55,760 nucleotides of DNA from Acidobacteriota bacterium (GTDB lineage: Bacteria; Acidobacteriota; Terriglobia; 2-12-FULL-54-10), in assembly GCA_009691245.1 (NCBI GenBank), contig SHUM01000019.1, positions 1 to 55,760 on the forward strand, read 5' to 3'. Below the pieces are notes generated by a model that searched no databases, was not told the DNA's origin, and worked only from the letters and a program-made list of their open reading frames with translations. The translations under genes and the position numbers were made by a program. Shown piece after piece: positions 1,496 to 9,450 of the stretch (within the stretch, counting starts at the first letter, position 1; the number at the start of each line of letters is the position of its first letter).

Positions 1496-2152
1496 TTACT
1501 GATTGTCCATCTCGCGCTCGATCTGGCTGCGATATTTTTCCATCAGTTCCGGTGGCAGTTCCGGTGGCAGTTCCGGCGTGGCTGCAATCTCGCCCATGCT
1601 TCCGGCCGCCATTTCATCCATGTTTCCGGCAACGGCGGGCTTGCGCTTGAGGCGCATCAAAGCAAAACCCACGGCCATTGCGCCCAGCCCCAGCACCAGA
1701 AACGGCATCAGCCAGGCCAGGAACGCAAAGCCCACGCGGGGGGGCTCGGGCAGCACCTTGGGGCCATATTGCTCGACAAAGCCGGCCAGGATCACTTCCT
1801 CGCTCTTGCCCTGCGCCATGCCTTCTTTGATGGTCCGGCGGATGTAGGTGGCCGAGGAGCAATCCAGGTGATTGCACGACAGGACAATGTAGCTGCAACT
1901 ACCGCACTGGCACAGCAGCTTATTGGAGATGCGCCGGAACTCGGCGACATTCTCGACCGGCTCCACCGAACTCATGGAACTCTGCGGTGGACTCTGCGGA
2001 GAAGACTGCGCGTACAGGGCCTTCGGCCAGCCACACAGCGCTGAGGTCAGTATGGCCGCAGAGCCGATGCCCAGCACCGCCAGCCGCGCACTCTTGCCCG
2101 CCCGCGACGGCAAATTTTTATGCGGCGACGGCATCGTGCTCCTTGTTTTCAC
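1496..2152 (-). CDS. ccmH: Cytochrome c maturation protein CcmH
   Basis: A 218-residue membrane-anchored thiol protein that reduces or holds apocytochrome c for haem attachment on the outer face of the membrane. It has an N-terminal hydrophobic segment (about 24-48), then the periplasmic helical CcmH domain with C81-Q-C83-G-S-C86, the position of the family LRCxxC motif, followed by two more cysteines (C93, C98). A second membrane segment is at 142-166. The C-terminal tail contains PELPPELPPEL, encoded by a 12-bp tandem repeat at 1547-1576. It is a one-domain form without the TPR half of enterobacterial CcmH. It overlaps the end of ccmF by 35 bases (17 if the second ATG at 2134 is used), implying coupled translation. 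Confidence 0.88.
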   Translation of the reverse strand: MKTRSTMPSPHKNLPSRAGKSARLAVLGIGSAAILTSALCGWPKALYAQSSPQSPPQSSMSSVEPVENVAEFRRISNKLLCQCGSCSYIVLSCNHLDCSSATYIRRTIKEGMAQGKSEEVILAGFVEQYGPKVLPEPPRVGFAFLAWLMPFLVLGLGAMAVGFALMRLKRKPAVAGNMDEMAAGSMGEIAATPELPPELPPELMEKYRSQIEREMDNQ

Positions 2153-4154
2153 CGGCTTCGGGATCAGTTGGTTTACGTTGCACGGCCACCAGACCGGGCT
2201 TGGAGGGCACCAGACAAACGACTGTGCCGAAAATCAGGATGAGCCCGCCGAGCCAGATCCAGTTCACCAGCGGATTGCGATGCACAGCCACCACAGCCTT
2301 CTGATTGGTGTCATTCATGCCGGAGAAGATCACGTAGAGGTCCTCATTCATGCGCGGGCGGATAGCCGCCTCGGTAGTCGCCTGGCGGCTGGTCTTGTAG
2401 AAGCGTCTCTCCGGCCTCAGCGTGTCCACTACTACGCCGCCGCGCCACATGGCCAGCTCGACGTGCTGCGAGGCATAGTTGGCATTGTCGCTCTCCACCA
2501 CCTGCTTCAGTTCGAACTCATAAGGCCCCAGCGCCAGACGTTCGCCGACGCCCAACTCCTGCTCCTTCTCCGTGTCAAACGCGGTGCCGGTGATGCCCAG
2601 GAAGATCAGCACCATGCCAAAGTGGACGATGTATCCGCCGTAGCGGCGGGTGTTGCGCATGGTGAGAATGTAGGCCGCTTGCATGGTGGAGACGCCGCTC
2701 TTCTCGCCAATCACCATTGAGCCGCGGGCGAACTCCATGATGATGGTTACCGTAACAAACGCGCAGAGTATAAACGACACCAGCGGATAAAATTCACGCA
2801 CGCCCGCCACGAACAGGGCGGCGCCCACGGCGAGTCCGAGGATTGCAGGGACCAGAAAGTTCTTTTTCAGGCTGGATATTGAGGTCTTGCGCCAGGCAAA
2901 CAGCGGGCCCAGTCCGGTCAGCGCCAGCAGCAACAGCCCGATGGGGACATTTACTTTATTGAAGAACGGCGCGCCCACGCTGATCTTGGTCCCCTGCACG
3001 GCTTCCGTAATCACCGGGAACAGCGTGCCCCACAGCACGGCGAAGCAGGAGGCCAGCAGCAGGAGATTATTGAACAGGAAACTCGATTCGCGCGAGACCA
3101 GCGAATCCAGCTGCTGCGCGCTGCGCAGATAATCGAGCCGGTCCATCAGGAGCCAGCCGGAGATGAGCATGCTCACGCCGAGGAAGCCGACGAAGTACGG
3201 GCCGATGGCTGATTGGGCGAAAGCGTGCACGGAGCTGACTACGCCGCTGCGCGTCAGAAATGTCCCGAAGATGCAGAGGTAAAAAGTTACGAAGATCAGG
3301 ACCATGTTCCAGACCTTCATCATGCCGCGCTTCTCCTGCATCATGACAGAATGCAGAAACGCGGTGCCCGTCAGCCAGGGCATGAAGGACGCGTTCTCAA
3401 CCGGGTCCCAACCCCAGTAGCCGCCCCAACCCAGCACGGCATAGGCCCAGCGACCGCCCAGAATAATGCCGACCGCGAGAAACAGCCATGCGGTCATGGT
3501 CCAGCGGCGCGTGGTCTCAATCCATTTTTCGCCAGCCTGCTGCGCGATCAGAGTGGCCATGGCGAAGGCGAAGGGAACGGAAAATCCGATGTAGCCGAGA
3601 TAGATCATCGGCGGATGAATGGCCATCGCTGGATACTGCAACAGCGGATTCAGCCCCTGCCCGTCGAGAGGACCCTGGACCATCATCTGGCCATTATGAT
3701 TCATCGCCATTTGTTGAAAGGGGTGCGCGATGAAGACGTTTAACACCAAAAAGAAAAGTTGCACGATGGACAGAATGGCGACTACGTAAGGCATCAACTG
3801 ACGATGCTGCTTGCGATTGAGCCACACGGCAATGGCGACGTACCCGGAGAGAATCCAGCTCCAGAACAGGAGTGAGCCTTCCTGGCCCGACCACAGCGCG
3901 GTGAGTTTATAGAACCACGGTAACGTGCGGTTACTGTGCGCGGCGACACTCATCAGCGTGAAATCATCGGAGAACAGCTTGTACCAGAGAACGCCCACCG
4001 CCACGCTGACCAGCACGCAGGTGGAGAGCGTCGCGCGATACGCGCTGATCTGCAGCCGCTCACGGCCTTTCACGATGCCGATGACCGACGCCGCCAAGGT
4101 GTACAACACCAGCACAAAAGCCAGATAAAGAGCGAAGCTCCCGAGAGTAATCAT
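2118..4154 (-). CDS. ccmF: Haem lyase subunit CcmF
   Basis: A 678-residue polytopic membrane protein of the CcmF/CcsA haem-handling superfamily. It takes haem from holo-CcmE and, with CcmH, ligates it to CxxCH apocytochromes. The tryptophan-rich WWD segment GGYWGWDPVENASFMPWL is clear at about residues 240-257. The conserved stretches WSGQEGSLLFW and HPPMIYLGYIGFSVPFAFA are present, as is the late TRNTRRYGGYIVHFGMVL region carrying a conserved histidine. Length is near the family norm of about 650. It lies 40 bases downstream of ccmE and overlaps ccmH. GGCAGG a few bases before the ATG can serve as ribosome binding site. Confidence 0.95.
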   Translation of the reverse strand: MITLGSFALYLAFVLVLYTLAASVIGIVKGRERLQISAYRATLSTCVLVSVAVGVLWYKLFSDDFTLMSVAAHSNRTLPWFYKLTALWSGQEGSLLFWSWILSGYVAIAVWLNRKQHRQLMPYVVAILSIVQLFFLVLNVFIAHPFQQMAMNHNGQMMVQGPLDGQGLNPLLQYPAMAIHPPMIYLGYIGFSVPFAFAMATLIAQQAGEKWIETTRRWTMTAWLFLAVGIILGGRWAYAVLGWGGYWGWDPVENASFMPWLTGTAFLHSVMMQEKRGMMKVWNMVLIFVTFYLCIFGTFLTRSGVVSSVHAFAQSAIGPYFVGFLGVSMLISGWLLMDRLDYLRSAQQLDSLVSRESSFLFNNLLLLASCFAVLWGTLFPVITEAVQGTKISVGAPFFNKVNVPIGLLLLALTGLGPLFAWRKTSISSLKKNFLVPAILGLAVGAALFVAGVREFYPLVSFILCAFVTVTIIMEFARGSMVIGEKSGVSTMQAAYILTMRNTRRYGGYIVHFGMVLIFLGITGTAFDTEKEQELGVGERLALGPYEFELKQVVESDNANYASQHVELAMWRGGVVVDTLRPERRFYKTSRQATTEAAIRPRMNEDLYVIFSGMNDTNQKAVVAVHRNPLVNWIWLGGLILIFGTVVCLVPSKPGLVAVQRKPTDPEAGENKEHDAVAA

Positions 4155-4194: not shown

Positions 4195-4728
4195 CTATTT
4201 CGAGTAACCGCCGGAGTAGCCAGCGGGATATCCGCCATTGTATTTAACGGCATCGCTCATGCTCGTTGGCGCGCCAGCGGGCGGCACGTATTCGCCGGGC
4301 GCGATGCCCGAAGCCTTGCGCTGTGCGGCGACAGCTTCATATTTTGAAGGACACTTGGCCTGCACGGCCTCGGCGTGAAAAGTCCCGTCGGGCTGATAGC
4401 GTCCGTCGGCGATGGCTTCCGCGCCATCGGCCAGCGTGTCGGGAAGAGGCTCGCTGCCGGTGTAGACAATCTTGAGCATCTTGCCGCCCTGCTCGATCTG
4501 GAAGTTCACGCGACCGTCGTCGCGCAGGATCGACCCAGCGGTTACATCGCCCGCGACGCGCAGGCGGCGCTCCTGCAACTGTTGACTATCCACCAACTCC
4601 GAGACGGTAACGTAATACGTCTTGCTTTCCTGAATGCCGCTGTAGGCCAGCCACGCCACCGTGGTCAGAATCACGGCGATGCCCGCCGCGAATCGCCAGT
4701 TTTTGCGACCAGAACGCACAGAACTCAT
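4195..4728 (-). CDS. ccmE: Haem chaperone CcmE, cysteine (CxxxY) variant
   Basis: A 177-residue protein with an N-terminal membrane anchor (about 13-31) and a CcmE OB-fold domain (VRVAG-like strand LRVAGDVTAGSIL, then VNFQIEQGGKMLKIVYTG and PLPDTLADGAEAIADGRY). In most CcmE proteins haem is bound covalently by a histidine in HxxxY. Here the aligned motif is C126-P-S-K-Y130, so the histidine is replaced by cysteine while the tyrosine is kept. CxxxY forms are known from archaea and Desulfovibrio, where they were reported with Ccm sets lacking CcmH and CcmG. Here ccmH is two genes downstream. The tail ends in YNGGYPAGYSGGYSK, a Gly/Tyr repeat. AGGAGG precedes the ATG. Confidence 0.9.
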   Translation of the reverse strand: MSSVRSGRKNWRFAAGIAVILTTVAWLAYSGIQESKTYYVTVSELVDSQQLQERRLRVAGDVTAGSILRDDGRVNFQIEQGGKMLKIVYTGSEPLPDTLADGAEAIADGRYQPDGTFHAEAVQAKCPSKYEAVAAQRKASGIAPGEYVPPAGAPTSMSDAVKYNGGYPAGYSGGYSK

Positions 4729-4975: not shown

Positions 4976-5635
4976 TTACTTGGGCTGATCGACCAGGCGC
5001 AGATACGGCCTGAGCGTCTTGAAGCCCTGTGGATACAGTTTCTTGGCCTCTTCGTCAGAGACCGCCATGGTGATGATGACTTCCCCGCCCGGCTTCCAGT
5101 TCACCGGCGTGGCCACTTTGTGCTTCATGGTGAGCTGGATGGAATCCAGCACGCGCAGAATCTCGTCGAAGTTGCGGCCCGTGGCCATCGGGTAGCTGAT
5201 CATCAGCTTGATCTTCTTGTCCGGTCCGATAACAAAGACCGTGCGCACCGTGGCGTTGTCGGCGGGCGTGCGGCCCTCCGAGGTGTTGCCGGCCTCTTCA
5301 GGCAACATATTGTATAGCTTGGCCGCCTTCAGCTCCGGGTCGCCGATCATGGGATAGTTCACCTTGTGCCCCTGGGTCGCTTCGATGTCGGCGGACCACT
5401 TGCCGTGGCTGGCGACCGGGTCCACGCTCAACCCAATGATCTTGCAGTTACGCTTCTTGAACTCCGGCTCAAGGCCGGCCATGTAGCCCAGCTCCGTGGT
5501 GCAGACGGGCGTGAAATCCTTCGGGTGCGAAAACAGAATGGCCCAGCCATCTCCGATCCATTGATGGAAGTCGATGGTGCCTTGCGTGGTCTCCGCCGTA
5601 AAATTAGGCGCTTCCGAATTGATGCGTAATGACAT
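4976..5635 (-). CDS. 1-Cys peroxiredoxin (Prx6 type)
   Basis: A 219-residue AhpC/TSA family peroxidase that reduces peroxides with one peroxidatic cysteine. The active site reads FSHPKDFTPVCTTELG with C45 as the peroxidatic residue and T42 as the conserved threonine; the Prx6-type histidine is at 37. The C-terminal extension with AEEAK-type helix and KTLRPYLRLVDQPK matches the Prx6 subgroup dimer arm. AGGAG sits 7 bases before the ATG. It lies inside the ccm gene run, between ccmE and the glycosyltransferase, but is separated from ccmE by an inverted repeat. A link between haem export and peroxide defence is plausible but unproven. Confidence 0.92.
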   Translation of the reverse strand: MSLRINSEAPNFTAETTQGTIDFHQWIGDGWAILFSHPKDFTPVCTTELGYMAGLEPEFKKRNCKIIGLSVDPVASHGKWSADIEATQGHKVNYPMIGDPELKAAKLYNMLPEEAGNTSEGRTPADNATVRTVFVIGPDKKIKLMISYPMATGRNFDEILRVLDSIQLTMKHKVATPVNWKPGGEVIITMAVSDEEAKKLYPQGFKTLRPYLRLVDQPK

Positions 5636-7460: not shown

Positions 7461-8213
7461 TCACTCTTCCAGCAGGTGGTCGAAGAGCATCAGTGATAGC
7501 ACCGTGAAGATGATGTTGAAGCCCAGGCAGATTTCGAGCCACGTGCCGGGAGTGACCAGCGGGTCATTGTTGAGCAGCACCGCCGTGGTGGCTTCCACCA
7601 GCGAGAGGATCAGCGGTATCTCGATGGGGAACAGCAGCACGGGCAGCATCATCTCGCGCAGTCGCACGCTGGTCGAGATGGCGGCAAAGGTGGTGCCCAC
7701 CGCCGCGAGCCCCCAGCTTCCCAGCAGCACGATGCCCACCAGCGTGAACAGCTTGTCGTCGAGGCGCACGTTATAGAAGACCGCGAACAGTGGGAGCAGC
7801 AGCAGATTTAGCAGGCCGAGAAAAAGTAAGTTGCTGAAAAGTTTTCCCAGATAGACCGCCGCGGGCGGGATGGGTGCCATGCGCAGCGCCAGCAGGCAGT
7901 CGTTGGGCACTTCGCGGGAGAAGGTCCGGCTCAGCGCCAGCATGCCGGAGAACGTGTAGGCCAGCCACAGCAGGCCGCCGGACATCTCGCGCGCCATCGC
8001 CGAGGTAGGCTCAAAGGCCATGCTAAAAATGACGATCACCAGCAGCGAGAAGACCGCCGCCGCATTGAACACTTCCTTGGTGCGAAACTCCGAGCGCAGA
8101 TCCTTCAGGAAAATGGTGGTGGCGGCGGCGAAGAATGAGACGCCGGGCCGCGCGTCTGCAACGAACGAGGCCGGTTCGGCCGAGGTGCCTGCGGATTTTG
8201 CGGAGGGTGCCAT
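7461..8213 (-). CDS. ccmB: Haem exporter membrane subunit CcmB
   Basis: A 250-residue protein with six predicted membrane segments. It matches CcmB: FLKDLRSEFRTKEVFNAAAVFSLLV near the start, then GLLWLAYTFSGMLALSRTFSREVPNDCLLALRMAP, GKLFSNLLF, and LREMMLPVLLFPIEIPLILS. CcmB with the ATPase CcmA and with CcmC forms the ABC complex that releases holo-CcmE. The CcmA gene normally sits next to it; here the upstream neighbour is a transaldolase gene and no ATPase is in the window. The N-terminal 25 residues are longer than usual, and a later start is possible. Confidence 0.9.
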   Translation of the reverse strand: MAPSAKSAGTSAEPASFVADARPGVSFFAAATTIFLKDLRSEFRTKEVFNAAAVFSLLVIVIFSMAFEPTSAMAREMSGGLLWLAYTFSGMLALSRTFSREVPNDCLLALRMAPIPPAAVYLGKLFSNLLFLGLLNLLLLPLFAVFYNVRLDDKLFTLVGIVLLGSWGLAAVGTTFAAISTSVRLREMMLPVLLFPIEIPLILSLVEATTAVLLNNDPLVTPGTWLEICLGFNIIFTVLSLMLFDHLLEE

Positions 8214-8264
8214 TAGCTTGATTCCACAGTCGCGATATCCTCAGTTTTTGCTCATCCAATCGTC

Positions 8265-8345
8265 GTCATTCCGAGCACAGCGAGGAACCTGCTTTACGTT
8301 GCGGTAAGAGCCAAAAAACAGGTTCCTCGCTGCGCTCGGAATGAC
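8265..8345. repeat. Inverted repeat, family B
   Basis: Arms GTCATTCCGAGC-CAGCGAGG (left) and its complement on the right (ending CTCGGAATGAC at 8345) pair over about 27 bases with one mismatch. The loop is AT-richer. It lies between the transaldolase stop and the ccmB start. A degenerate copy lies at 50149-50244. No coding capacity; a MITE or REP-type element is the best guess. Confidence 0.8.
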
Positions 8346-8382
8346 CACGATTTTATTTTTCGGCAAACATAACTACACAGCT

Positions 8383-9450
8383 TCAGCGGCGCGCCGCCAG
8401 CGAACCCAGCGCGGCGCGCTTCTCGCCAATCAATTTCAACAAACCCTTGTGCGGGTCGGCGAACTTGGCGACGCCTTCGCGCATAAGAACTTCTTCCAAC
8501 TTGGCCAGGTCCAACGCGCCGTCAATTTCGCGCAGCACCGCATCGGCGGGCATTTGATCGACCGCGCGGGTAATCGTCCGCCCGCTTGATTCCACGGCCT
8601 CGTTGGTCGCCGGGGGATTGGTCTCGATGTCCGAACCGGCCAGCGCCGCGACGTACTTCGCCGGATCGTCCTCCGGCTTCTTCGTGCCGGTGCTGGCGAA
8701 AATGATCTCCTGCTTTAGCGGCAGCTTCTCGGCGGCCCAGAAATCCTGATTCTCGCGCCACATGCGTTTAGCCAGCACGATACCCACCTGCCCCTGTGCA
8801 GCAGCGGAAAGTTGCGAGACATGTTTCTCGGTGTAGACATCCACGCGGCTGACGAAGACGCTGTAGACGGATTTGAACACGGAGAAGTTCGCACGTTTTT
8901 GCGCTCCGCGCCAGACCGCCTCGCGTGCCATTCGATATTGGCGCGGCGTGAAGATCAGCGTTACGTTCAGCGTGATCCCGTGCGCGGCAAGCGCCTCCAG
9001 CGAGTCGATGCCCGCCGGCGTTGCAGGGACTTTGATCATGCGATTGGCATGTCCCGCGCACCACTGCTTACCTAACTCCATATACCGGCGCACGCGCTCG
9101 GCGTGCGGCAGGTTCAGCGTGGTGTCTTCAATCAGCGGATCGAGTTCGAAGCTGACGTAGCCGTCATCACCGTGGGTGGACTGATGCACGGAAAGAAAAA
9201 TCTCCTGCGCCTGGCGCACCAGCATATCGGTCAACTGCCAGGCGATGGCCTCGTCGTCGAACCCCTGCCCGGCGAGCCGTGCCAGATCCGCGTCGTAGCG
9301 GCCGGACTTCAAAATGTCGGAGACGATTATGGGGTTGGACGTGGCACCCGTCGCGCCGCGGTCGCGGTTGACGCGCAGGAAATCCGGGTCAATGCTATCC
9401 AGCCAAACCTTCGTTCCCGATTCCACCAGACTGCGCAAACCTTGGGCCAT
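8383..9450 (-). CDS. tal: Transaldolase
   Basis: A 355-residue cytosolic enzyme of the non-oxidative pentose phosphate pathway. It moves a dihydroxyacetone unit from sedoheptulose 7-phosphate to glyceraldehyde 3-phosphate. The catalytic lysine is in [19 protein letters not shown]. The N-terminal signature GATSNPII and the later [21 protein letters not shown] segment place it in the longer TalAB-like bacterial group that is often fused to or paired with phosphoglucose isomerase. Here the matching PGI-type protein is a separate gene at 29896-31683. A GTG two codons upstream is possible, but GGAG lies 6 bases before the chosen ATG. Confidence 0.93.

Follow-up and report, generated by a model that had tools for sequence, protein, structure and literature searches.

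A cysteine-type CcmE and a five-cysteine CcmH among the cytochrome c maturation genes of an Acidobacteriota bacterium

The haem chaperone CcmE of an Acidobacteriota bacterium (GTDB lineage Bacteria; Acidobacteriota; Terriglobia; 2-12-FULL-54-10) raises the question of whether a protein that carries cysteine at the haem-binding position can belong to a Ccm set that also has CcmH, and what kind of CcmH this is. The window is the whole stretch of DNA that was analysed, 55,760 nucleotides of contig SHUM01000019.1 (assembly GCA_009691245.1). In an initial annotation made from the letters alone, HxxxY of CcmE was read as replaced by CPSKY (C126, Y130), and a one-domain CcmH with CQCGSC was placed directly beside CcmF. 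CxxxY proteins were described there as belonging to Ccm sets without CcmH and CcmG, and either a third combination of parts or a wider distribution of the CxxxY form was proposed. The features are collected in Table 1.

Table 1. Cytochrome c maturation genes of the genome, neighbouring features and fusion loci of other genomes
Feature	Contig or locus	Positions	Strand	Remarks
ccmH, one-domain five-cysteine variant	window	1496-2152	-	PF03918, 53.5 bits (cut-off 25)
ccmF, synthase subunit	window	2118-4154	-	PF16327 and PF01578
ccmE, Cys-type haem chaperone	window	4195-4728	-	ATG start, 177 aa, PF03100
peroxiredoxin gene	window	4976-5635	-	AhpC-TSA and 1-cysPrx_C domains; between ccmE and the detached ccmB
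ccmB	window	7461-8213	-	PF03379, 113.6 bits; TIGR01190 below cut-off
gene X	C46 (L122)	7590-8756	-	own genome; directly upstream of ccmA
CcmF-CcmH fusion loci	L079, L086, L059, L300, L305, L093, L276, L302
CcmF-CcmH fusion loci (rest)	L289, L299, L287, L073, L109, L291, L107, L274

The open reading frame of CcmE matches the Pfam model PF03100 with 84.4 bits (cut-off 24.6) and covers profile positions 2-98 of 99. Its motif KCPSKY corresponds to K125-C126-P-S-K-Y130, and the codons in the window are TGT for C126 (4351-4353) and TAT for Y130 (4339-4341). The profile aligns C126 with the haem-binding His of E. coli CcmE (8ce8, 1sr3: AKHDENY) and with the Cys of D. vulgaris CcmE (2kct: TKCP); C126 and Y130 are the counterparts of E. 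coli H130 and Y134 (HDENY). The protein has the haem-binding residue (H or C) followed by Tyr at +4 that marks members of the family. K125, C126, and Y130 are invariant across an alignment of 22 CcmE proteins that are 26-41% identical to the window CcmE. The replacement of HxxxY is thus confirmed by the profile alignment, the codons, and this invariance. A displaced haem histidine elsewhere in the protein is ruled out, since C126 occupies the aligned haem position. A sequencing error is a very unlikely source of C126 because the nearest relative, which is 84% identical, also carries KCPSKY.

The genes ccmE, ccmF, and ccmH follow each other directly on one strand. The annotation of a one-domain CcmH with CQCGSC beside CcmF is borne out by its PF03918 match and by a 35-bp overlap of ccmF and ccmH, which lie in the same direction. 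In an alignment of 147 CcmF proteins, the window CcmF retains all four haem-ligand His (H187, H275, H317, H518) and the WWD stretch. Between ccmE and ccmB lie two genes, one for the peroxiredoxin and one for a membrane protein that contains TPRs. Profile searches of the genome located ccmA and ccmC together on another contig (C46) of the same assembly. CcmA scores over the TIGR01189 cut-off and CcmB over its Pfam cut-off, and both CcmB and CcmC are below the NCBIfam cut-offs. CcmC retains WGxxWxWDxRLT and two His in contexts that resemble the known P-His. No System II was found in this genome, in which the ResB profile matches only the C-terminus of CcmF. A weak CcmC-like match on contig C33 was rejected as a System II part; its neighbours are hemA- and hemC-like, and it is probably a HemX-like protein. 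The Ccm genes of the window, together with ccmA and ccmC, appear to be the sole cytochrome c maturation machine of the genome. No CcmG was found among the genes of the window Ccm cluster. Several TlpA/ResA-like redoxins, none of them above the dsbE cut-off, are encoded elsewhere in the genome, and given these, the CcmG function may sit outside the cluster.

The cluster is scattered in this lineage: the window has E-F-H and, some 2.7 kb upstream, a solitary ccmB, and X-ccmA-ccmC is on C46; two relatives (L133 and L134) also have ccmB upstream of ccmE. The peroxiredoxin gene adjoins the Ccm genes, and any role of its product in haem handling is speculative.

The residues and the gene set, which were observed directly, can be compared with several known systems. 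As in System I* of D. desulfuricans (Allen 2006, Goddard 2010; PMC3601427), the Cys of CxxxY replaces the haem-binding His, CcmA, B, C, and F are present, System II is lacking, and the cluster is without CcmG. The difference lies in CcmH: it is missing from the original 2006 description of System I* and from Desulfovibrio, whereas here a PF03918 CcmH with five cysteines adjoins CcmF. Neither CcmG nor CcmH is needed for the D. desulfuricans system to function in E. coli (PMC3601427). The archaeal CcmABCEF of Methanosarcina acetivorans (PMC9084895) is likewise a streamlined set with a Cys-type CcmE, but it has no CcmH and its CcmF is split. Classical System I (E. coli; Methylophaga plasmid, L318) shares the CcmE domain, the CcmF ligands and WWD, the CcmC motifs, and the three-helix CcmH family. 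It differs in the haem His in place of Cys, the LRCxxCQ form of CcmH, the presence of DsbE/CcmG and CcmI, and the order A-B-C-D-E-F-G-H-I. The window very probably encodes the periplasmic half of the known Cys-type pathway, System I*, comprising ccmE-ccmF-ccmH and the detached ccmB, with CcmH and CcmF acting as the synthase.

In the Cys-type pathway, CcmABC would present haem at the outer face of the membrane, where C126 of CcmE would capture it covalently at a vinyl group. A thioether is suggested by analogy with the CcmE proteins of D. desulfuricans and M. acetivorans, and Y130 is the likely axial iron ligand. At its WWD/P-His site, CcmF would receive the haem, which it would then attach to apocytochrome c. 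In association with CcmF, CcmH would bind the apocytochrome and keep its CXXCH reduced, and its five conserved cysteines may perform the thiol exchange that elsewhere needs both CcmH and CcmG. For haem attachment, for the chemistry of the bond, and for the role of the extra CcmH cysteines, we infer from homologues. No biochemistry of an acidobacterial Cys-type Ccm member was found in the literature searched. Covalent haem has been reported for D. desulfuricans CcmE (PMC3601427). The CcmE of M. acetivorans is haem-stained; its C120A variant carries no haem, and both C120A and C120H fail to restore cytochrome c (PMC9084895). The covalent bond is not certain because D. vulgaris CcmE has been reported to hold ferric haem non-covalently (cited in PMC3884852). 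A CcmE that holds haem non-covalently via C126 and hands it on without a thioether would agree with that report; the covalent haem of D. desulfuricans and the haem staining in M. acetivorans argue against it, and it is regarded as improbable here.

The frequency of the pairing was determined in a phylum sample of 297 Acidobacteriota genomes, of which 186 have CcmE and 146 have CcmH. For 111 of the CcmE genomes, representing 52 of 59 families, the motif was taken directly from the sequence. There were no mixed families, and extension by family gave 159 Cys-type and 20 His-type genomes (179 typed), with 7 genomes left unread. This survey of Cys versus His against CcmH, which the initial annotation had suggested, found CcmH in 121 of the 159 Cys-type genomes (76%) and in all 20 of the His type. 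The pairing of Cys-CcmE with CcmH is routine in Acidobacteriota, a result that the initial annotation had named as one that would speak against its reading, and a third combination of parts is not supported. Nor is the pairing new. In a 2011 review (PMC3601427), CcmH is reported for approximately one third of the bacteria that have a Cys-CcmE, so that the absence of CcmH is not characteristic of CxxxY sets, and CPSKY is the commonest Cys motif, occurring in delta-proteobacteria, Chloroflexi, and Firmicutes. The simplification that a Cys-CcmE means no CcmH is corrected by the present counts, and the review had dropped it already. Among the first 110 loci, CPSKY was read in 68, CASKY in 17, CPTKY in 3, and CPSRY in 1, the remainder being HxxxY, and at least 527 KC[PA]SKY loci were confirmed in a scan across GTDB genomes. 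The proposal that CxxxY proteins occur more widely than had been described therefore stands as regards its extent in these two samples; wide occurrence as such, and the CPSKY motif, had been published. Beyond Acidobacteriota, the coverage consisted of one other phylum sample and plasmids. A record titled "Acidimicrobiia bacterium" (VFZK01000133; L201 / G298) was rejected as evidence for a second phylum; its phylum sample yielded the same acidobacterial genomes, and its title is probably wrong.

Overall, the observation is sound and concerns a known system, the less expected part being the five-cysteine CcmH that replaces the textbook form. What the initial annotation overlooked is that Cys-CcmE has beside it a CcmH which, judged by its residues, is of a different kind. 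Its cysteines follow the pattern C81-x-C83-G-x-C86...C93...C98 (LLCQCGSC...CNHLDC), and all five are invariant in 43 aligned homologues, which are 22-85% (mostly 22-38%) identical to the window CcmH and all still CcmH by profile. The window protein matches 2hl7 and 2kw0 by sequence. With Foldseek, the best matches of its predicted fold are again the CcmH structures 2hl7 (prob 1.00, TMt 0.70) and 2kw0, with a modest E-value of 0.015 and a matched part that is a domain of only about 80 residues. The three-helix PF03918 domain with a membrane anchor that defines classical CcmH is present; the redox motif LRCxxC(Q) is not, and the five-cysteine pattern takes the same place in the sequence. No relevant description of a cysteine-rich CcmH variant was found in the literature searched.

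The type of CcmH tracks the type of CcmE without exception in the sample, a linkage that was observed directly and that includes the CcmF types. Where both proteins were read, LRCxxCQ is absent beside Cys-CcmE in all 133 genomes or loci and present beside His-CcmE in 10 of 10, although these cases are not independent, many being closely related to the window. The CxCxxC...C pattern is present in 122 of the 133, and the others have APCC or a two-cysteine form. The gene order is E-F-H-(X)-A-B-C in the Cys type and A-B-C-E-F-H in the His type. The cluster includes a CcmG-like redoxin (a thioredoxin-like gene) at 12 of 13 His-type loci versus 3 of 170 Cys-type loci. In Acidobacteriota, the haem-binding residue of CcmE thus predicts the CcmH type, the gene order, and whether the cluster has a CcmG-like gene. 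This rule offers a natural comparison for how a chaperone with a chemically stable cysteine-haem bond can still hand its haem on, and for which cysteines reduce the apocytochrome when the cluster is without CcmG. The strict link of Cys-CcmE to five-cysteine CcmH appears to be new as far as the literature searched goes. A third combination, in which a classical System I with CcmH had acquired a Cys-type CcmE, would account for CPSKY in CcmE and for a PF03918 protein next to CcmF. It is hardly credible, however: the window CcmH is not of the LRCxxCQ form, the window CcmF groups with other Cys-type CcmF, all three proteins (CcmE, CcmF, and CcmH) are members of the Cys-type package, and the arrangement is the usual one in the phylum and of a kind published in 2011 (PMC3601427).

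On a tree of 63 CcmF proteins, the His and Cys types are parted by a single change. The link between CcmE and CcmH therefore reflects one deep split that has been kept intact, that is, two ancient packages, and says little about the cause. Independent evolution of the link by repeated convergence is not supported by this tree. In 16 Cys-type loci (Table 1), CcmF and CcmH form one open frame of 816-975 codons; these are apparent natural fusions, and one frame for both proteins supports a joint CcmF-CcmH synthase.

Another component of the Cys-type clusters is gene X, which is located between ccmH and ccmA and occurs in these clusters only. Its product has a signal-like N-terminus and a membrane helix, often a carboxypeptidase-regulatory-like segment, and sometimes a C-terminal coiled stretch, and X proteins mostly match no Pfam model. 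The gene was found in 62 of the 297 genomes, all 62 with CcmE and none of the His type; the chance of drawing all 62 from among the 186 CcmE genomes is about 2e-15 when kinship is ignored. Gene X is undescribed as far as the literature searched goes.

The Bacillus group is better known for System II. Cys-type Ccm genes are also present on large plasmids of Cytobacillus and Metabacillus (L222, L319). The clusters of Cytobacillus firmus NZ_CP107028 and Metabacillus NZ_CP088246 resemble that of the window in their KCPSKY CcmE, CcmF, CcmH, X, and CcmA-B-C, in the Cys-type order. The link between the Bacillus and acidobacterial X proteins was drawn from one direct match at 2e-8 and iterative searches. 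These clusters differ in a CcmH with only two spaced cysteines (PPGC...YC) and in a TlpA gene within the cluster.

Two readings of the five CcmH cysteines can be weighed. They may act as a thiol relay complete in itself, in place of the CcmG-CcmH pair, and Cys-type clusters would then need no CcmG. The invariance of the cysteines in the 43 homologues and the uneven distribution of thioredoxin-like genes between His-type and Cys-type clusters point in this direction. The relay is nevertheless somewhat doubtful, since this genome has genes for TlpA/ResA-like proteins at other places, the two plasmid clusters that retain TlpA have a CcmH with fewer cysteines, and the single His/Cys split on the CcmF tree provides one contrast. 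Alternatively, the cysteines could bind a metal such as zinc or form structural disulfides, with no thiol exchange. Their spacing, C-x-C-G-(x)-C-x6-C-x4-C, often with CNH or CNM, seems to resemble small metal sites; the pattern, however, stands where classical CcmH carries its redox motif, and the predicted fold matches CcmH, which makes this reading rather unlikely.

As a tentative proposal, the Cys-type Ccm may be a separate co-adapted package. It would combine Cys-CcmE with a separate CcmF lineage, with a five-cysteine CcmH that does the thiol work of CcmG, and with X as a membrane-anchored partner, and its parts would remain unmixed with those of the His-type package even within one phylum.

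A second CcmH-like form, with APCC in place of the CxxC motif, was observed in Cys-type genomes (L271, L277, L278, L279, L280, L285, L293, L265, L216, L298), and several of these genes lie on a contig other than that of ccmE.
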